DNA of 64,000 nucleotides from Bradyrhizobium iriomotense (GTDB lineage: Bacteria; Pseudomonadota; Alphaproteobacteria; Rhizobiales; Xanthobacteraceae): positions 1 to 64,000 of the forward strand of contig NZ_JAFCJZ010000001.1 in NCBI RefSeq assembly GCF_018130765.1. Direction: 5' to 3'. This document shows positions 18,848 through 47,719 of the stretch, piece by piece. How positions within the stretch are numbered: the stretch's first letter is position 1; every line of letters starts with the position of its first letter. A model generated the notes under the pieces. The model saw only the letters and a program-made list of their open reading frames with translations. It did no database searches and was not told the DNA's origin. Made by a program: the position numbers and the translations under genes.

Positions 18848-20952
18848 CCCGCCCCGATCAGCGGGATCGCCTCGTCCCGCTCATACAGATACAGCAGGCA
18901 CCGCAGCGCCTCGCCGCGCTCGCCCTTCAGCTTGGGGTCGTCCTTGAGGATGCGCAGCGCCTCGTCTCTAGCCTGGGTGATGAGCTGGCCGTGGACCTCC
19001 GAGCGCGCGATGCGGTAGCCGGGCAGGCCGCTCTGGCGCACCCCTAACACGTCGCCTTCGCCGCGCAGCTTCAAATCCTCCTCGGCGATGCGGAAGCCGT
19101 CGGTGGTCTCGCGGATCACTTTCAGCCGTGCCTTCGACATCTCGCCGAGCGGCTCGCCGTAGAGCAGGATGCACGTCGAGGCCTCCGTGCCGCGCCCGAT
19201 GCGGCCGCGCAGCTGGTGCAGCTGGGCAAGGCCAAAGCGCTCGGCGTTCTCGATCACCATGATGGTGGCGGCCGGCACGTCGACGCCGACCTCGACCACT
19301 GTGGTCGCGACAAGGAGCCCGATCTCGTGGGCCGCGAACTGGCCCATCACGCGGTCTTTCTCGGTGCCCTTCATCTGGCCGTGGACGAGGCCGACACGCT
19401 CGCCGAAACGTTTTTGCAGGCTCTCGAACCGCTTGGTCGCGTTGGTCAGGTGCTCGGTACCCTCGGCTTCGGATTCCTCGACCAAGGGGCAGATCCAGTA
19501 AACCAGCTTGCCGGATTCGAGCGCGCGGCCGACGCCGTCCATGACCTCGCTGATCCGGCTCATCGGTACCGCGCGGGTGTCGATCGGCTGACGGCCGGCG
19601 GGCTTTTCGCGCAGCTCGGAGATGTCCATGTCGCCGAAATAGGTCAGCACCAGCGTGCGCGGGATGGGGGTGGCGCTCAGCACCAGCACGTCGACGGCTT
19701 CGCCCTTGGACGTCAATGCGAGGCGCTCGCGCACGCCAAAGCGGTGCTGCTCGTCGACGACGGCGAGCGCGAGATCGTGGAACATCACATCGTCCTGGAT
19801 CAGCGCATGGGTGCCGACGAGAAGGTCGATCTCGCCGGCTTCAAGTTGCGCCAACAGCTCGCGCCGCTCCTTGCCCTTCTCGCGGCCGGTGAGGATTGCG
19901 ACCCTCATCCCCGCGCGTTCGGCGAGCGGGGCAATGGTCTTGATATGCTGGCGCGCCAGAATTTCGGTCGGTGCCATCAGCGCGGCCTGCTTGCCGACTT
20001 CGGCCACGGCGGCGGCCGCGAGCAGCGCCACCACGGTCTTGCCGGAGCCGACGTCACCCTGAAGCAGGCGCAGCATGCGCACCGGCTGCTTCAGATCCTC
20101 GGCGATGGCTGCCGCGGCGTTGCGCTGGGAAAGCGTCAGCGCATAGGGCAGGGCGTCGATGATCTTGTTGCGCAGGTGGCCGTCGCCGGCATTGCGGACG
20201 CCGGCGGGGCGGCGCAGCTGCGCGCGGATCAGCGCGAGGGCGAGCTGGCCGGCCAGGAGCTCGTCGAAGGCGAGGCGCGACCAGAACGGCTGGTCGGGCA
20301 GGATGTCCGTGAGTTCGACCGGCTGGTGCACGCGCGTGAGCGCTTCCGCGATTGGCGGGAAGTGGCAGCGGCGCATCACCTCCGGGCTGATCCATTCCGG
20401 CAAGGCGGGGAGCTTCTGCAGCGCCTGCGCGATCGCGCGGCGCAGCGAGCCGAGCGCGAGCCCCTCCGTCAGCGGATAGACCGGATCTATCCCCGAGAGC
20501 TTTGCAATCGCCTCCTCGTCGAGCACGCGGTCCGGATGCACGATCTGCGGAATGCCGTCATACATCTGCAGCGTGCCGGAGACGTAGCGCTTCTCCCCCA
20601 TTGGCAGCAGTTTTTCGACATAGCCGGGCTTGGCGCGGAAGAAGGTGAGCACGACATCGCCGGTATCGTCGCTGGCATAGACCAGATACGGCGCACGCGC
20701 GTTACGCGGCGGGGGCGGGCGATGGCGATCGACGGTGACCTCCAGCGTCACCATGGTTCCAACGGCCGCGTCGCGGATTTTCGGCCGCGCCCGGCGGTCG
20801 ATGACCTGGCTCGGCAGATGCAGCAGCAGGTCGACCAGCCGCGGCGTCTCGTTGCGGCTGAGCAGGTACTGCAGCAGCTTGTCCTGCTTCGGACCGACGC
20901 CGGGCAGGCTGGTCACGGGAGCAAACAGCGGATTGAGCAGGCTGGGGCGCAT
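18844..20952 (-). CDS. recG: ATP-dependent DNA helicase RecG
   Basis: 702 residues. The N-terminal wedge/OB domain (residues about 50-200) is followed by helicase motor domains with Walker A GDVGSGKTVVAL, the box II variant VDEQHRFGVRERL, motif III LSATPIPRTL, and the second motor's GRIGRGTEASTCIL. It remodels stalled replication forks and branched DNA. Divergent from sdhE-mfd, the usual alphaproteobacterial arrangement. Full length. Confidence 0.97.
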   Translation of the reverse strand: MRPSLLNPLFAPVTSLPGVGPKQDKLLQYLLSRNETPRLVDLLLHLPSQVIDRRARPKIRDAAVGTMVTLEVTVDRHRPPPPRNARAPYLVYASDDTGDVVLTFFRAKPGYVEKLLPMGEKRYVSGTLQMYDGIPQIVHPDRVLDEEAIAKLSGIDPVYPLTEGLALGSLRRAIAQALQKLPALPEWISPEVMRRCHFPPIAEALTRVHQPVELTDILPDQPFWSRLAFDELLAGQLALALIRAQLRRPAGVRNAGDGHLRNKIIDALPYALTLSQRNAAAAIAEDLKQPVRMLRLLQGDVGSGKTVVALLAAAAVAEVGKQAALMAPTEILARQHIKTIAPLAERAGMRVAILTGREKGKERRELLAQLEAGEIDLLVGTHALIQDDVMFHDLALAVVDEQHRFGVRERLALTSKGEAVDVLVLSATPIPRTLVLTYFGDMDISELREKPAGRQPIDTRAVPMSRISEVMDGVGRALESGKLVYWICPLVEESEAEGTEHLTNATKRFESLQKRFGERVGLVHGQMKGTEKDRVMGQFAAHEIGLLVATTVVEVGVDVPAATIMVIENAERFGLAQLHQLRGRIGRGTEASTCILLYGEPLGEMSKARLKVIRETTDGFRIAEEDLKLRGEGDVLGVRQSGLPGYRIARSEVHGQLITQARDEALRILKDDPKLKGERGEALRCLLYLYERDEAIPLIGAG

Positions 20953-41326: not shown

Positions 41327-42057
41327 TGCATCTGATCACCAGCCCCGAGGCGTGGGCCGCGCTGCTGACCCTGACCTCGCTCGAGATCGTGCTCGGCATC
41401 GACAACGTGATCTTCCTGTCGGTGATCGTCTCGCGCATCCCGGAGCAGCAGGCGAACCGCGCCCGCCAGATCGGGCTGGCGCTGGCGCTGGTCTTCCGCA
41501 TCATCCTGCTCAGCGTGCTGGTCTGGCTGATCGGCCTGACCGCGCCGGTGTTCTCGCTTGCGGGTTACGACTTCTCCTGGCGCGACCTGATCCTGATCGG
41601 CGGCGGCCTGTTCCTGATCGCGAAGGCGACCCACGAGATCCACGCCGAGGTCGAGGTCGATGACGACGAGGGCGATGAGAAATCCGGCGGCAGCGCCTTC
41701 TTCTGGGTGATCGTCCAGATCATCGTCATCGACATCGTGTTCTCGCTGGACTCGATCATCACCGCGATCGGCATGGCCCAGGACATCGAGATCATGATCG
41801 CGGCAGTCGTGATCGCCTGCCTGATCATGTACATTTCGTCCGGGCCGGTGTCGCGATTCGTCGCGGAGCATCCGACCACGAAAATGCTGGCGCTGGCCTT
41901 CCTGGTGCTGATCGGCGTCGCGCTGGTTGCTGACGGTTTCCAATTCCACATCCCGCGCGGCTACATCTATTTCGCAATTGCGTTCTCGGCGGCGGTGGAG
42001 TTCTTCAACGTGCTGGCCAAGCGTAATCGCAAGAAGGCGAGCAAGCCGTCGATTTAG
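41323..42057 (+). CDS. TerC family integral membrane protein
   Basis: 244 residues, about seven transmembrane helices. Both hallmark helices with buried acidic residues are present: LEIVLGIDNVIFLSVIVSR and IDIVFSLDSIITAIGMA. A charged loop (VEVDDDEGDEKSGG) separates the halves. TerC proteins are implicated in metal (Mn) export and membrane-protein metallation. It is translationally coupled to pcs by an ATGA overlap. Confidence 0.9.
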   Translation: MMHLITSPEAWAALLTLTSLEIVLGIDNVIFLSVIVSRIPEQQANRARQIGLALALVFRIILLSVLVWLIGLTAPVFSLAGYDFSWRDLILIGGGLFLIAKATHEIHAEVEVDDDEGDEKSGGSAFFWVIVQIIVIDIVFSLDSIITAIGMAQDIEIMIAAVVIACLIMYISSGPVSRFVAEHPTTKMLALAFLVLIGVALVADGFQFHIPRGYIYFAIAFSAAVEFFNVLAKRNRKKASKPSI

Positions 42058-42133
42058 GCGTTCCAGTCGCCGTCGAGTTGACAAGGCGGGCGCGATGTCT
42101 TTCGCTCAGCCTTGGAGAAGAGGAGGTCAGGTG

Positions 42134-43108
42134 ATGACCAAAGCCGTCCGGGTGCACAAGGTCGGAGGTCCCGAAGCCCTGGTCTATGAGAGCGTCGAGG
42201 TGCCGGCGCCTGCTGCCGGAGAGGTGCGCATCCGCCAGCATGCGGTCGGCCTCAACTTCATCGACGTCTATTACCGCACCGGCCTCTACAAGGCGCCGGG
42301 GCTGCCCTTCATCGCCGGCAACGAGGCCTCGGGCGAGGTGGTTGCGGTCGGGCCGGGCGTCACCAATTTCCATCCCGGCGACCGTGTCGCCTATTATCAC
42401 AACCTCGGCGCGTATACCAGCGAGCGCAACCTCCCCTGGGAGAAGCTGGTCAAGCTGCCCGACCACATTACGCATGAGCAGGGCGCCGTGCTGATGCTGA
42501 AGGGGCTGACGGTCTGGTACCTCCTGCACAAGACCTTCAAGGTCGAGCCGCATCATCGCGTGCTGATTCATGCGGCGGCCGGCGGTATCGGCCTGCTCGC
42601 CTGCCAATGGGCGAGTGCGCTTGGAGCCCATGTCATCGGCACCGTCGGCTCGCGCGAGAAGGCCGAGCTCGCGGAGGCCAACGGCTGCGACCACGTCATC
42701 CTCTACAACGAGGAAGACTTCGTCGCTCGCGTCAAGCAGATCAGCCGCAACGAGGGCTGCGACGTCGTCTATGACGGCGTCGGCAAGGCGACCTTCCCGG
42801 GCTCGCTGTCCTGCCTGAAGCCGCGCGGCATGTTCGTCTCCTTCGGCAATGCCTCAGGTCCGGTGCCGCCGTTCTCGATCGCCGAGCTCAACAATCACGG
42901 CTCGCTGTTTGCGACCCGGCCGAAGCTCAACGACTATATCGGCACGCGCAAGGAGCTGCTGGAAGGCGCCGACACGCTGTTCGCCGCCGTCATCAACGGC
43001 AAGCTGCACGTGCCGATCAATCATGCCTACGCGCTCAAAGACGCAGCGAAGGCGCATATCGATCTCGAAAGCCGGAAGACCACGGGCGCGTCGATTTTGA
43101 AGCCGTAG
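42134..43108 (+). CDS. NADPH:quinone oxidoreductase (zeta-crystallin type MDR)
   Basis: 324 residues. Medium-chain reductase without the zinc-binding cysteines. GroES-like N-terminal domain (GLNFIDVYYRTGLYK, the quinone reductase Tyr signature) and Rossmann motif IHAAAGGIGLLACQWA (AAGGVG-type). It reduces quinones with NADPH. AGGAGG lies at ideal spacing before the ATG at 42134. It follows terC by 76 bases and may have its own promoter. Confidence 0.9.
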   Translation: MTKAVRVHKVGGPEALVYESVEVPAPAAGEVRIRQHAVGLNFIDVYYRTGLYKAPGLPFIAGNEASGEVVAVGPGVTNFHPGDRVAYYHNLGAYTSERNLPWEKLVKLPDHITHEQGAVLMLKGLTVWYLLHKTFKVEPHHRVLIHAAAGGIGLLACQWASALGAHVIGTVGSREKAELAEANGCDHVILYNEEDFVARVKQISRNEGCDVVYDGVGKATFPGSLSCLKPRGMFVSFGNASGPVPPFSIAELNNHGSLFATRPKLNDYIGTRKELLEGADTLFAAVINGKLHVPINHAYALKDAAKAHIDLESRKTTGASILKP

Positions 43109-43129
43109 GTCTCAACGTCGTTCTCCGCT

Positions 43130-43272
43130 CTCGTGTCCCGGACGCGCTGCAGCGTTCTTACGCTGCTGCGCAGAGCCGGGACCCAGAAGGCGGTGCTGCA
43201 TGCTGCGGAGAGATGGGCCCCGGCTCTGCAGCGCACCGCCGAAGAGGCGCTGCGCTGCGTCCGGGGCACGAG
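43130..43272. repeat. Long palindromic repeat, CGTGTCCCGGACGCG type (copy 1 of 2)
   Basis: Starts CTCGTGTCCCGGACGCG and ends CGTCCGGGGCACGAG. Internal arms GAGCCGGGACCC and GGGCCCCGGCTC also pair. A related copy is at 61291-61425. It lies between the convergent ends of the quinone reductase gene and argD. Confidence 0.8.
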
Positions 43273-43279
43273 ACCATCT

Positions 43280-44476
43280 CTACGCCACCCGCCGCGCCGC
43301 GCCGGCCTTGGTCAAGATGCCGTCGAGACAATCGATCATCTCGGCGATCTCTCCCTTGGTGACGTTCAGCGCCGGCATGAAGCGCAGCGTGTCGACCTGC
43401 GGGGCGTTCAGCAGCACGCCGGCCTCGAACGCCTGCGCGACGATCCCCGGTGCGATCGGCAGCTTGAGGTCGAGCGCCAGCAGCAGCCCGCGTCCGCGGA
43501 CGCCGCCGAGGCCGTGCCGGGCCGAGACCTTCTGCAGCTCGCTTTCGAGCAACAGGCCGGTCTCCGCGACCGACTTCAGGAAGTCCGGCTTTTTGATCTC
43601 CTCCAGCACCGCAAGTCCCGCCGCGCACATGATCGGGTTGCCGTTGAACGTGCCGCCCTGGTCGCCATGCTCGAAGCAGGAGGCGCGTTCGCCCGCGAGC
43701 AGGGCTGCGAGCGGCACGCCGCCACCGATGCCCTTGCCGAGCGTCATGATGTCGGGTGCGATGCCGGCGTGCTCATAGTGGAAGAGCTTTCCGGTCCGGC
43801 CCATGCCGGTCTGGATCTCGTCGAAAATGAGCAGCAGGCCGTGTGCCTCGGTCAGCGCGCGCAGCTCCTGCAAGAACTTGTCGGTCGCCGGCCACACGCC
43901 CGATTCACCCTGGATCGGCTCGAGCATCACAGCGACCGTGTTGGCGTTGATCAGCTTCTCGACCGAGGCGATGTCGTTCAGCTTCGCCTTCTTGAAGCCT
44001 GACACCTTCGGCTCGAACAGCGGCTCGAACGCCTTCTTGCCCGAGGCCGACATGGTCGCCAGCGTCCGGCCGTGGAAGCCGCCTTCGAAGCTGATGATCT
44101 CGAACGCGCCGTTCCCGTGCAGGCTGCCATATTTGCGCGCGAGCTTGATCGCGCCCTCGTTGGCTTCCGCACCTGAATTGGCGAAGAACACCTGGTCGAA
44201 CGCGCTGTTCTCGACCAGCGCCTGCGCCAGCTTCAGACTCGGCTCGTTGTAGAACGCCGGGCTCGGCGTGAGCAGCCGCTTGGCTTGCGCGGTGAGCGCA
44301 TCTGCAACTGCGGGCGGGGAGTGGCCGAGGCAGTTCACGGCCCAGCCCTGCACGAAATCGAGATAACGCTTGCGGCCATCGTCCCAGAGGTAGGAGCCGG
44401 CGCCGCGGACGAACACGGCCTTGGGCCGTGCGGTGATGTCCATCAGCGCGCCATACGGATGGGTGGCGGTGGTCAT
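43280..44476 (-). CDS. argD: Acetylornithine aminotransferase (class III PLP enzyme)
   Basis: 398 residues from the ATG at 44476, with AGAGGAG before it. Class III aminotransferase motifs: [18 protein letters not shown] (phosphate binding), [14 protein letters not shown] with the PLP-N1 aspartate, and the Schiff-base lysine in [17 protein letters not shown]. Converts N-acetylglutamate semialdehyde and glutamate to N-acetylornithine. ArgD is favoured over other omega-aminotransferases by length and motif wording. The Arg-rich leader frame and hairpin upstream (44513-44666) strengthen this. No argF neighbour is present. Confidence 0.88.
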
Positions 44477-44512
44477 GTCGAACTCCTCTGGAGGCGGGTG
44501 AAAAAGGGACGC

Positions 44513-44550
44513 AAAAAGCAAGAAGGCCGCACTTTGCGGGTGCGGCCTTC
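44513..44550 (-). terminator. Intrinsic terminator in the argD leader (attenuator candidate)
   Basis: On the minus strand, GAAGGCCGCAC (44540-44550) pairs perfectly with GTGCGGCCTTC (44522-44532) around a 7-base loop, followed by TTGCTTTTT. That is an 11-bp GC-rich stem plus a T run (44513-44517). It lies 26 bases after the stop of the Arg-rich frame and about 36 bases before the argD start, so as read it would stop transcription before argD. The plus strand has no T run, so it is directional. Confidence 0.85.
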
Positions 44551-44576
44551 TCGAAAACTATGCTGAATTCAGGTGT

Positions 44577-44666
44577 TCAGCGGCGTCGTCGGACATGGCG
44601 CAACCCATCATCGTCGCGGGTGCGACGACGGAAAGCTGCGCGGCGGTTGGTCCGAGAGTTGATCAT
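44577..44666 (-). CDS. Arg-rich leader peptide upstream of argD (candidate)
   Basis: 29 codons, beginning MINSRTNRRAAFRRRTRDD and ending RHVRRRR before TGA. Twelve are Arg codons, including three consecutive ones (CGT CGT CGC, 44622-44630) that lie inside a predicted hairpin arm. No Shine-Dalgarno sequence is present. A candidate -10 sits only 8 bases upstream, so the transcript would start at or very near the ATG, as in the leaderless trpL of rhizobia. Inferred role: ribosome stalling on Arg codons to control the terminator before argD. GC-rich chance frames also contain much Arg, so it needs proof. Confidence 0.55.
   Translation of the reverse strand: MINSRTNRRAAFRRRTRDDDGLRHVRRRR
44609..44630 (-). 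promoter_or_regulatory. Leader hairpin 1:2 over consecutive Arg codons
   Basis: CGTCGTCGC (44622-44630) pairs with GCGACGATG (44609-44617) around ACCC: nine pairs, one of them G-U. A ribosome held at the three Arg codons would keep this hairpin open, leaving GGGTTGCGCC (44597-44606) free to pair with GGCCGCACCC (44538-44547), which is the 5' arm and loop of the terminator. Pairing was read by eye only. Confidence 0.5.
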
Positions 44667-44674
44667 GGGGCGCG

Positions 44675-44704
44675 TCCGTACAGCCGAATGGCAGGACTTG
44701 TCAA
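44675..44704 (-). promoter_or_regulatory. Candidate promoter for the argD leader transcript
   Basis: On the minus strand, TTGACA (44699-44704), 18 bases, then TACGGA (44675-44680). The -35 is perfect and the -10 weak. Initiation 6-8 bases further on would fall at or next to the ATG of the Arg-rich frame. Confidence 0.45.
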
Positions 44705-44743
44705 GCGGCCGTTTTGCGAGACACCCGCCGAACGTGCACCGGG

Positions 44744-45385
44744 TCAGGTCAGGTGCGGCGCTTGCTCGGCGTCCTCGTCGCCCCAATCCGCATCCGCAAT
44801 CGCGGTGTCGATGAGCTCACCGCGCATCAGCTTGAGCGGCGATTTCCAGTACAGCGCGATGTTGTGGAAGGGGTCGGTCAGTACCTTGAACGCCCACACC
44901 AGCCCCGTCGTGACGTCGCGTGTTGCGAACAGCTGCAGCATGCGGGCAAGAGCGCCCCCGATCCCGACCGCGAGCCAGAGCGCGCCGACATGGCGGACGA
45001 AGTCGAAGCGGTCGGTGGGAGGATCGAAAATCCCGAGCAGGGTGGGGAAGATGTACAGCGCGATCGGCGCGCTGCCCCAGACCAGGAGCAGGATGATCTT
45101 GCGCGTCTGGTTGTAGCCGACTTTCACCGCCTCCTTGTAGGCGTTGCTGACGTCGTTGACGGCGTCATAGCCGTTCGGCTCGAAGAAGAAATGCCCGGTC
45201 TGCCGCGTCAGCATCGCGAGCCAGCCGACGAGCCCGGCGAGGGCAGGGTCCTTGAACAGCAGCGCATAGCATCCGAGGAAGATCACGGCGCTGACGAGGT
45301 GCAGCGTCTGGTTGACGGTGCTCTGGTGGTAGAAGCGGTAATCGTCGAAGCGCTGCGTGCGCAGCATGTCTGACAGACGGCTCAT
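44744..45385 (-). CDS. Multi-pass membrane protein, Mpo1/DUF962-like
   Basis: 213 residues from the ATG at 45385. Hydrophobic, with about four membrane helices. Contains RFYHQSTVNQTLHLVSAVIF, a His-x5-Asn-x3-His spacing like Mpo1/DUF962 dioxygenases, and RQTGHFFFEPNG, which adds another His and Glu. In yeast Mpo1 is an Fe(II) dioxygenase for 2-hydroxy fatty acids. The assignment is suggestive only, and the protein is longer than simple DUF962 members. The start is overlaid by a hairpin that covers the ribosome binding site. Confidence 0.6.
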   Translation of the reverse strand: MSRLSDMLRTQRFDDYRFYHQSTVNQTLHLVSAVIFLGCYALLFKDPALAGLVGWLAMLTRQTGHFFFEPNGYDAVNDVSNAYKEAVKVGYNQTRKIILLLVWGSAPIALYIFPTLLGIFDPPTDRFDFVRHVGALWLAVGIGGALARMLQLFATRDVTTGLVWAFKVLTDPFHNIALYWKSPLKLMRGELIDTAIADADWGDEDAEQAPHLT

Positions 45386-45386
45386 C

Positions 45387-45419
45387 AAAAATCCTCGCGC
45401 GCGTTGAAAGGCGCGCGAG
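45387..45419 (-). promoter_or_regulatory. Hairpin covering the ribosome binding site of the Mpo1-like gene
   Basis: On the minus strand, CTCGCGCGC (45411-45419) pairs perfectly with GCGCGCGAG (45394-45402) around an 8-base loop. The 3' arm contains the GAG of the Shine-Dalgarno sequence GAGGAT and is followed by TTTTTG and the ATG. It could act as an RBS-masking switch or as a terminator/attenuator. Confidence 0.55.
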
Positions 45420-45498
45420 AATTAGGACGAGTCCGTGACCCCTGCATGAATGCACTATAGTGTCACATTGCATGCGCAGGCAGGGCGGCGCGAGAGGA

Positions 45499-46668
45499 TC
45501 ACTCGACACCGTAATGCGCGAACACATCGGCGATGCCGGCGTTGATCGCTTTCGCCGCTGCGATGTCGCGTTCGGCGCCCTCGTTGTCGCCCTTCTTTCG
45601 CTTCGCAAGCCCGCGGCCGTAGAGTGAGCTGTCGAACTGCGGCCTTGCGTTCAGTGCTGCGTCATAGTCGGCAATCGCCGCGTCGAGATTGCCGAGCTTG
45701 AGATAAGTGAAGGCGCGGCTGTCGAGCGTATCAGGATCGTTGGGCTGCATCCGCAGCGACTGCTCGCAATCGGCCAGCGCCTCCTGCAAACGCCCGAGGA
45801 TCGCGCGTGTCATGCAGCGCGAATTGAACACGCCGGCATAACGCGGATTGGCCTTGATCGCGCGGTCGTAATCCTCCAGCGCCAGCGCATAATCATGCGT
45901 ATCGAAATACATGCTCGCGCGCGCATAGTAATCGAGGTCGTTGTTCGGAGAGAGTTGAAACGCCTTGGCGAAATCGGCCAGCGCTCGGGCACGGTCGCCG
46001 CGGTCACGATAGATGCGAGCACGGTTGCCATAGGCCGGGCCGTAATTCGGGTCGAGCTTGATCGACAGGTCGAGATCGGCGAGCGCGCGATCGGCCTCGC
46101 CGTGCTCGCGATAGGTTGAGCCGCGGTTGTAATAGGCAAGCGCAAATTTCGGATCGAGCTTGATGGCCTGATCGTAATCGGCGATCGCATGCGCGTAATC
46201 GTTCTTGCCGATGTAGGAATTGCCGCGGTTGTTGTAATATTGGGGATCACCAGGCTCGAGCCGGATCGCTCTCGTATAGTCGGCGATGGCATGGTCGCGA
46301 TCGCCGAGATCGTCATGGACAATGCCGCGATTGTACCAGGCGATGGCGTCCTTCGGATCGAGGTCGATGGCGCGGTTGAGATCGGCCAAAGCCCGCTCCG
46401 TATCCCCCTTGCGCCGGAAGATCTCGCCGCGATTGGCAAGCGCCCGCGCATGGGATGGGTTGGTTCTCAGCACCGCCGAGCAGCCGGCGAGGCGCTGCTC
46501 GTCGCTGACCTCGTCGGTGCCGAAGCACCATTGTCGCGCCTGCGCCGGCGATGGGGATTGGGCAGCGGCGGGAAGCGCAAGCAGGATCAATGCTGTGCCA
46601 ATGGCGTACAGCCCGCTCCGGATACCAACCTTGTGATTGTATTTCATCGAATGTCGCGCAGAAACCAT
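45499..46668 (-). CDS. Exported TPR-repeat protein
   Basis: 389 residues from the ATG at 46668, chosen because AGAGG lies before it. A signal peptide (GLYAIGTALILLALPAAAQ) is followed by a two-Cys segment (RQWCFGTDEVSDEQRLAGCS) and about nine tetratricopeptide repeats, each with the NRG/YY start and ALADLNRAIDLDP-type helix (for example DHAIADYTRAIRLEPGDPQY). It should be a periplasmic protein-interaction scaffold. Monocistronic. The two cysteines before the repeats are typical of this alphaproteobacterial group. Confidence 0.85.
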   Translation of the reverse strand: MVSARHSMKYNHKVGIRSGLYAIGTALILLALPAAAQSPSPAQARQWCFGTDEVSDEQRLAGCSAVLRTNPSHARALANRGEIFRRKGDTERALADLNRAIDLDPKDAIAWYNRGIVHDDLGDRDHAIADYTRAIRLEPGDPQYYNNRGNSYIGKNDYAHAIADYDQAIKLDPKFALAYYNRGSTYREHGEADRALADLDLSIKLDPNYGPAYGNRARIYRDRGDRARALADFAKAFQLSPNNDLDYYARASMYFDTHDYALALEDYDRAIKANPRYAGVFNSRCMTRAILGRLQEALADCEQSLRMQPNDPDTLDSRAFTYLKLGNLDAAIADYDAALNARPQFDSSLYGRGLAKRKKGDNEGAERDIAAAKAINAGIADVFAHYGVE

Positions 46669-46720
46669 TGAGCCTCTAGCGCGTTTGTGATCAACGGACG
46701 CCAATTGGTTCGAACCGAAC

Positions 46721-47719
46721 GTGACTCGGCTCAGACCAAGGGAGACGGGACCAACCAGACAGTTTTCAGCCTTGTCCGATACCCCTTACCCGATAGACCT
46801 CGACAGCATTCGCGGCGCGTTTCCGCCGGGAATCGAAGCGCCACCGCTGCTGGTCGACTTTGCCGCCTGGCTCAAGGGGCGCCCCTGGGGCAGCGTCGGC
46901 TGCTTCTCCCTGCAAGGCCAGTTCTCCGATTCCGCGCCGATCGTCGACGGCAGTCCGTTGCGCGACAGGTTCTCACTTTTCATGCGCTTGCCTGACGGTT
47001 CGGCTGTCGGCGGCTGGTATGGCGCCGGTCTCGACCGCGACAACCCGCCGATCGTCGGACTGGGATCGGAGGGCGACTACGAGCTGCTCGCACCGAGCCT
47101 CGACGGGCTGCTCGCCAAGCTGACGTCGCAGCAATTCGACAAGGCCTGGAGCGATCTCAAGCCGCATGAGGAGGTCGAGTGCCAGACGGTCGAGCTCGCG
47201 CAATGGCTTGCCGGACAGCCGGCGGGCGAGAACCTCGCCTGTGACGACGGCGCGCCGGAGTTGCCTGATTTCCGCGGCTTCATGGAAAAATGGAGCCGGG
47301 ATCGCGAAGACTACTGGGCCAATCACCGTCTGATGGCCGAGCTCGGCTGGCGTCTCGCGGCCCATCTGCCCAAGGGCAAGAACTCGTGGGACAAGACGCA
47401 TTTCGAGGTCGCGATCGTCGGCAAGCAATACCAGGCCCGCGTCCTTTCGCGAGGGCCGCAGCCGTTCGAGGAAGCCGCCTCGATCGAATCCCTGCTGCGC
47501 GATCTGCGCGAGGAAATGCGCCGCGCGCAGCCCGAGCTCGGGCTGTGGTACGCGATGAAATTCGGCCTCTATGCCGACGGCCGCGTCATGCCGAGCTTCG
47601 AGTATGACGTACGCCCGACCATCGACGGCGAGCCCGCGAAATTATCCGAGGCTCAGGCCGATCTCGCCCGCGCCCCGCGCCCCGAGCGCTGGGTGCCGAA
47701 ATGGCTGGCGGCATCCTGA
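46721..47719 (+). CDS. Hypothetical protein, possible two-domain immunity-like protein
   Basis: 332 residues, soluble, no signal peptide. The first half has a SUKH/SMI1-like feel (LFMRLPDGSAVGGWYGAGLD, then PPIVGLGSEGDYELLAPSL). The second half ends in WYAMKFGLYADGRVMPSFEY, a pattern seen in DUF600-type immunity proteins. Both assignments are guesses from pattern. No toxin gene lies nearby. The last roughly 20 codons (ADLARAPRPERWVPKW) are duplicated about 1 kb downstream at 48661-48745. Start uncertain (46721 or a TTG near 46772). Confidence 0.6.
   Translation: MTRLRPRETGPTRQFSALSDTPYPIDLDSIRGAFPPGIEAPPLLVDFAAWLKGRPWGSVGCFSLQGQFSDSAPIVDGSPLRDRFSLFMRLPDGSAVGGWYGAGLDRDNPPIVGLGSEGDYELLAPSLDGLLAKLTSQQFDKAWSDLKPHEEVECQTVELAQWLAGQPAGENLACDDGAPELPDFRGFMEKWSRDREDYWANHRLMAELGWRLAAHLPKGKNSWDKTHFEVAIVGKQYQARVLSRGPQPFEEAASIESLLRDLREEMRRAQPELGLWYAMKFGLYADGRVMPSFEYDVRPTIDGEPAKLSEAQADLARAPRPERWVPKWLAAS

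Follow-up and report, generated by a model that had tools for sequence, protein, structure and literature searches.

The 64,000-nt stretch of DNA analyzed here, referred to below as the window, contains a gene for acetylornithine transaminase (argD) that is preceded by a short reading frame rich in arginine codons and by an intrinsic terminator. This arrangement raises the question of whether an arginine-pathway gene is controlled through the translation of its own leader. A first-pass annotation had read the region as an arginine-responsive attenuator with a leaderless leader peptide, and all of the elements that it listed, including TTGACA, a weak -10 and the 29-codon frame with its arginine codons, are present on the minus strand at the coordinates given below.

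Layout of the argD locus

The argD gene lies on the minus strand (43280..44476) and encodes an acetylornithine transaminase of the PRK03715 type (NF002985, 647.4 bits, cutoff 568), so that the gene behind the leader is that of an arginine-pathway enzyme. The gene had been correctly named in the first-pass annotation, which overlooked that it is a second argD copy and of this particular type: another argD-like gene of the same genome (G000:C35:13667-14800) is 43% identical to it. A look for the leader's terminator motif alone found no copy upstream of this other argD (L080). The PRK03715 type is rare in the order, with matches at E 1e-100 in 10 of 297 genomes, nine of them in Bradyrhizobium. 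A likely Shine-Dalgarno site for argD (AGAGGAG, 44483..44489, minus strand) was identified by eye. The upstream neighbour at 44744-45388 is Mpo1-like, scoring slightly below the Pfam cutoff. Elsewhere in the window, ARAGORN reported a 91-nt tRNA-Trp at 20707-20797 that is absent from the Rfam results and is perhaps a false call.

All features of the leader are on the minus strand. A -35 hexamer (TTGACA, 44699..44704) and a weak -10 hexamer (TACGGA, 44675..44680) are separated by an 18-nt spacer, and the transcription start is predicted to fall at or next to the ATG at 44666. This ATG opens a frame of 29 codons, 12 of them for arginine, that ends with TGA at 44579-44577 (44577..44666; peptide MINSRTNRRAAFRRRTRDDDGLRHVRRRR). 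With the start predicted there, no space would be left for a Shine-Dalgarno site before the leader ORF, and the promoter spacing thus predicts a leaderless message. Within the genus and its family, the first T of TTGAC is located 38 nt (68 sequences), 37 nt (6) or 36 nt (10) upstream of the leader ATG in all 84 homologues with an open frame, and many relatives have TATGGC or a similar sequence as the -10, the same hexamer having been picked in the near relative L243. A generic promoter scan called no sigma-70 site within 42000-47000, because the -10 is too poor for the rule that it applies.

Following the transcript from its predicted 5' end, the first paired element is the 5' strand of an outer helix (CGGAC, 44650..44654), whose partner GTCCG lies at 44590-44594. 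Inside it are the lower 5' strand of stem 1:2 (GCGCAGCTT, 44633..44641), predicted by the fold to sequester the antiterminator strand, and the putative control codons CGT CGT CGC (Arg 13-15, 44622..44630), which form the upper arm 1. Arm 2 (GCGACGATG, 44609..44617) makes nine pairs with arm 1, one of them G-U, and is followed by the antiterminator strand (GGGTTGCGCC, 44597..44606), of which 44598-44606 also pairs with 44633-44641. A small hairpin (GCTGA...TCAGC, 44562..44581) takes in the leader stop codon. The predicted partner of the antiterminator strand, GGCCGCACCC (44538..44547), comprises the 5' arm and loop of the intrinsic terminator (44513..44553; stem 44553-44519, T run 44517-44513). 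The T run ends where the first-pass annotation had placed it, at a distance of 36 nt from the argD start codon (44476). The terminator stem, previously described as 11 bp, has 14 pairs including G-U, and the 11 are its core; the antiterminator pairing proposed earlier is possible, and is now described as nine pairs with two bulges.

Conservation and folding of the leader in Bradyrhizobium

Of the 195 genus genomes, 188 contain a match to the DNA of 44460-44730 (among the 183 of good quality, 181). Eight genomes (G055, G177, G063, G082, G070, G166, G051 and G041) each have two to three leader-region matches instead of one. We read 85 loci, consisting of 70 from the genus DNA search (the 30 best, window included, and 40 mostly divergent ones, out of the 188), seven more of the genus and eight from other genera of the family. 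Conservation of the frame in relatives had been put forward as a test of the attenuator, and the frame proved to be open in 84 of the 85 loci, with 28-31 codons, 8-13 arginine codons and a TGA stop in all 84. Stops interrupt the other two frames across the same span in 81 and 65 of the 84 sequences, and gaps inside the aligned frame are whole codons. The RRR run is present in 81 of the 84. In the 74 sequences with 29 codons, codons 13, 14 and 15 are each arginine in 73, whereas 33 have arginine at codon 28 and 65 at codon 29. Codons within paired regions are nearly fixed (for example, codon 5 is CGG in 73 of the 74). A DDD run, complementary to the RRR arm, is conserved as well in leaders of this type.

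The single locus in which the frame is closed, L051 (G149:C1:4852750-4853450), has TAG at leader codon 3, and nothing in its promoter spacing, its pairings or its terminator appears disrupted; judged by its sequence, it is a natural no-translation allele of the leader. Beyond the genus, a search of 187 genomes of the family found nine with an argD orthologue of at least 64% identity among the places listed. Eight of these nine are preceded by a Bradyrhizobium-type leader, and the ninth (L079 of G230) by an otherwise unlike leader with five arginines in a row and a terminator of its own.

The 153-nt leader RNA is unusually stable, at -70.3 kcal/mol versus -44.9 kcal/mol (sd 3.5) for its shuffles (z -7.25, with 0 of 200 shuffles as stable). 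In the predicted fold, GGGUUGCGC is paired with GCGCAGCUU in a lower stem beneath the RRR hairpin. As the antiterminator strand GGGUUGCGC is held in this way by GCGCAGCUU, a ribosome positioned on the arginine codons would free it. Mutual exclusion of the two states would come from this lower stem. The nine-pair hairpin of the arginine codons, correctly described in the first-pass annotation, does not by itself exclude the antiterminator.

Across the 84 aligned sequences, the proportion of cells paired is 99.8% for the 11-pair core of the terminator, 97.6% for the small hairpin, 95.6% for the antiterminator, 94.2% for its extended version and 87-90% for the parts of stem 1:2, compared with 31-56% for slid versions. 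The outer helix is paired in all 84, several pairs of the lower stem strand at 44633-44641 fail in 11-38 sequences, and 19 sequences lack the antiterminator pair 67-139 or 68-139. The pairings expected in relatives are kept, at 94-96% of cells, but these high percentages arise mostly from invariance, many pairs never varying, and a linked change occurs in just 11 similar sequences. In these, an antiterminator U, a terminator A and the U that is its partner have become C, G and C together; the antiterminator C is also found without the terminator G, and the 11 sequences likely form one clade. The whole-structure covariation score is no better than that of shuffles (259 of 500 as high). Scored in two registers, the antiterminator lies above all 500 shuffles in one and below most in the other, and we therefore rejected covariation as proof of the structure. 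The outer helix, being nearly invariant, gives no covariation signal either way; it is kept more strictly than the peptide would require.

The effect of a ribosome was modelled on nascent RNA that still lacked the 3' arm of the terminator, and the RNA lying upstream of the ribosome was masked in full as well. In this model the antiterminator has a probability of 0.21 when no ribosome is present, 0.88 for an A-site at codon 5 and 1.00 for A-sites at codons 8, 9, 13, 14 and 15; the value falls to 0.70 at codon 17 and to 0.00 at codons 23, 26, 27, 29 and 30. Stalling at the late arginine codons 26-29 would favour termination. When the full RNA is folded at equilibrium, the terminator forms with a probability of 1.00 whatever the ribosome position. 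As the completed terminator wins in every such fold, equilibrium folding was rejected as proof of switching, and the antiterminator, if it works, must act kinetically.

We infer the start site, the translation of the leader and the response to arginine, and the proposed mechanism would operate as follows. Transcription would start at the leader AUG or a few nucleotides from it, and a ribosome would load onto the leaderless message and trail the polymerase. When arginine is plentiful, the ribosome would pass the arginine codons to the stop, covering or passing the antiterminator strand, so that the terminator forms and transcription stops, yielding a leader transcript about 150 nt long. When arginine is short, the ribosome would stall among arginine codons 8-15, masking GCGCAGCUU and the RRR arm; the freed strand GGGUUGCGCC would then capture the emerging 5' arm of the terminator (GGCCGCACCC) and the polymerase would read into argD. 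If the leader is not translated, its 5' part would mostly hold the antiterminator strand, leading to termination.

Leaders before the same argD type in other lineages

The PRK03715-type argD was followed into other lineages by examining 80 loci, the best 80 of 591, in which the ATG was chosen solely by how well a -35 and a -10 suited a transcript beginning there. Terminators were called at 60 of the 80 loci, and a qualifying ATG ORF was present at 55 of these 60. RR occurs in 54 of the 55 promoter-chosen ORFs, RRR in 47, and RRR together with a promoter score of at least 5 in 45. The same procedure on the reverse strand gave 22 ORFs, of which eight contained RR, three RRR and none both RRR and such a promoter score, and 40 rounds of shuffling gave means of 24.6, 6.05, 0.6 and 0, respectively. 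The genera in which leaders with RRR were found include Bradyrhizobium, Burkholderia, Paraburkholderia, Caballeronia, Trinickia, Cupriavidus, Ralstonia, Collimonas, Herminiimonas, Herbaspirillum, Oxalicibacterium and Undibacterium. In the other genera, where distances of 4-9 nt upstream of the leader ATG were searched, the best -10 usually lies at 7 nt. The leader ORFs range from 15 to 37 codons across lineages; the arginine run is kept and the remainder differs. By script, the Alcaligenaceae, Polynucleobacter, Azonexus and Dechloromonas loci of the 80-locus set have no RRR ORF before a terminator, and four loci (L170, L185, L204 and L230) have the ORF though the terminator rule of the script scores them negative.

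Loci were also read at other taxonomic ranges; because the draws overlap (L117/L197, L123/L175, L054/L184, L060/L242, L061/L230 and L067/L219, for example, are judged to be shared genomes), their counts are not additive. In the phylum, 19 of 299 genomes carry this argD type outside the genus: five have an ORF with at least three consecutive arginines before a terminator, three have a comparable ORF whose arginine run is limited to RR (judged by eye) and 11 have no visible leader. In a family draw taken as Burkholderiaceae, the gene is present in 43 of 60 genomes; of the 30 loci that were read, 18 show an arginine-run leader and 12 show none. In the order of G819, the gene is present in 8 of 60 genomes; four of the eight loci have leader and terminator, one (L151) has an arginine run and no clear terminator, and three have neither. 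In G641, the tenth genome of the window's own order with this argD, a leader-like ORF contains RR and a terminator is visible by eye.

Pairing of the antiterminator strand with the terminator 5' arm was compared with shuffles in two tests. The first covered 34 leaders, with the arginine run badly chosen for two (the window and L168) and with L204 (no terminator) and L105 left out; it gave a mean z of -1.2, with p<0.05 in eight of the 34. In the same 34 leaders, pairing of the arginine-codon region with the antiterminator strand was not above that of shuffles of the region (mean z +0.7). When the strand-to-terminator test was redone with a fixed rule on 56 leaders (L215, having no RR, was dropped), the duplex beat the mean of its own shuffles in 53 of the 56, with p<0.05 in 20, or in 17 when the terminator arm was shuffled instead; the leaders are related, so these p values do not combine as independent evidence. 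The window's own duplex has a z of -1.2 (p 0.14). In 46 of the 56 leaders, the antiterminator strand is held by the 5' part of the leader with a probability of at least 0.3, a count made without a control.

The attenuator reading is supported more strongly outside the genus than within it, since unlike leaders before an argD of the same type keep arginine runs, a promoter spaced to the ATG, a terminator and a strand that could base-pair with its 5' arm. The layout of the locus, its conservation, the parallel design in other lineages and the folding logic are what the sequences and models show. We judge it highly likely, with a probability of roughly 85%, that the leader is a leaderless ribosome-mediated transcription attenuator that senses charged Arg-tRNA. 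Weighing against this are the scarcity of covariation, the arginine-region pairing that did no better than shuffles, the dominance of the terminator in all equilibrium folds and the number of argD genes of this type with no leader in sight. Computationally, it has what such an attenuator is predicted to have: an arginine-rich ORF, a terminator, a gene of the matching pathway and an antiterminator that would exclude the terminator.

Rfam bears on this reading in another way. The leader of the window has no T-box, riboswitch or other described leader above threshold; the best match, Thr_leader (27 bits versus a threshold of 55), and STnc320 were rejected as sub-threshold matches that overlap the terminator hairpin. 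The window leader also has no match to RF02884 (BcKCsr7), but this family exceeds its gathering threshold in eight of 22 argD leaders scanned, which are eight of the 13 Burkholderiaceae loci among them. These leaders are from Burkholderia, Paraburkholderia, Caballeronia and Trinickia, together with L134, and the matches lie over the argD leader and terminator (L194, 2275-2441; L179, 2249-2401; L186, L169, L197, L191, L174 and L134). In L194, from Burkholderia cepacia, BcKCsr7 spans from 14 nt upstream of the leader ATG through the T run of the terminator. In the other five Burkholderiaceae loci (L231, L199, L119, L127 and L148), BcKCsr7 is below the gathering threshold.

Rfam files BcKCsr7 only as an sRNA, "Burkholderia sRNA 7", which leads to the alternative that the leader is chiefly the gene of a trans-acting sRNA placed before argD, with the terminator ending the sRNA and argD expressed by readthrough. 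The RNA of the Sinorhizobium trp attenuator, described as a dual-function sRNA in PMC10117765, is a precedent for such activity. We nevertheless consider this alternative improbable, as an sRNA would not need linkage to argD across genera, shared arginine runs or an open frame. A trans-acting function may instead be a second role of an attenuator RNA, and the attenuator reading, if right, would give BcKCsr7 a likely function.

A second alternative retains attenuation by leader translation and replaces arginine with general translation speed or another signal. It draws on the conservation of DDD in the Bradyrhizobium type and on a tetracycline-linked attenuation reported for a DUF1127 gene of Sinorhizobium (PMC12218461). 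The first of these points is explained by DDD being the complement of the RRR arm. Among the 55 promoter-chosen ORFs, runs of at least three of any other residue are limited to Asp (5), Thr (1) and Leu (1), and outside Bradyrhizobium no residue except arginine shows repeated runs; as the gene is also that of an arginine-pathway enzyme, we regard a signal other than arginine as quite improbable. Least probable of all is a coding role in which the ORF yields a functional small protein rich in arginine and the terminator is an ordinary one, for although the frame is conserved and rich in arginine, its length and its sequence outside the arginine run differ across lineages, codons in paired regions are nearly fixed, and the leader peptide has no Pfam match.

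Relation to known systems and origin of the proposed switch

Ribosome-mediated attenuators that respond to amino acids are known from trp, his, thr, leu, ilv and phe operons. The argD leader resembles the trp- and his-type attenuators in having a leader ORF with runs of codons for the product of the pathway, mutually exclusive hairpins and a terminator before a biosynthetic gene. It differs from them in that the amino acid proposed to be sensed is arginine and the controlled unit is a single gene, argD of the PRK03715 type. To our knowledge, arginine is absent from the bacterial amino-acid attenuators described to date, and in fungi the arginine attenuator peptide, which is likewise a leader on which arginine acts, arrests the ribosome in response to free arginine. 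Comparative surveys of attenuators in proteobacteria reportedly exist. No arginine attenuator before argD was found in a search of open-licence literature, and a supplement could hold a prediction.

Another related system is trpL/rnTrpL of Sinorhizobium meliloti, for which PMC10117765 describes a leaderless leader ORF and an attenuator-derived RNA. The argD leader is predicted to share these features, and it differs in codons (Arg, not Trp) and length (29 versus 14 codons). BcKCsr7 coincides with the argD leaders of part of the Burkholderiaceae and differs in being filed as an sRNA gene that the window leader does not match. In Pseudomonas, the carAB operon is similar in being related to arginine, in having a leader peptide and in perhaps being attenuated; in the account of PMC4997734, this possible attenuation is ascribed to pyrimidines, arginine acts at transcription, and the leader is not described as an Arg-run leader before argD. 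Arginine also reportedly bears on the leader of Salmonella speF (PMC6386406), but speF is a polyamine gene. In B. cenocepacia, carA is listed among genes with short 5'-UTR transcripts (PMC5688073).

The best reading of the sequences and folding models is that the argD leader would be a new amino-acid member of the known ribosome-mediated class. It is unusual in sensing, as proposed, arginine, in occurring in two bacterial classes, in its tie to one argD type and in its connection with an sRNA so far unexplained. The repressor ArgR (PF01316), which acts in arginine regulation, was above cutoff in none of the 21 genomes around that of the window, with one weak match below cutoff, nor in any of the 31 Burkholderiaceae genomes tested, which include tiny symbiont ones. 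In control genomes it was above cutoff in 8 of 14; PF01316 would miss the AraC-type ArgR of Pseudomonas. If the attenuator reading is right, it would provide a direct arginine sensor for Bradyrhizobium and Burkholderiaceae, where no PF01316 ArgR was found. On the same condition, the natural variants of the leader, with arginine runs of two to five and one nonsense allele, would allow a direct test of how leaderless leader ORFs function in attenuation.

In a tree of 89 argD proteins (with long branches flagged and a root for drawing only), the 13 alphaproteobacterial rows of the Bradyrhizobium kind join G1021 (L149) first (100/94). No leader is visible at this locus, the nearest relative outside Bradyrhizobium in the tree. 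A joint transfer of gene and switch is a likely reading. A wider scenario, in which a gene-plus-switch cassette moved between Betaproteobacteria and Bradyrhizobium and replaces ArgR where bacteria are without it, with leader RNA and arginine-rich peptide acting in trans and BcKCsr7 as the Burkholderia version of that RNA, is drawn by analogy with the rhizobial trp attenuator and is doubtful. The next to join in the tree are two uncultured Betaproteobacteria (L164 and L165; 99/92), both of which have RR leaders before terminators.
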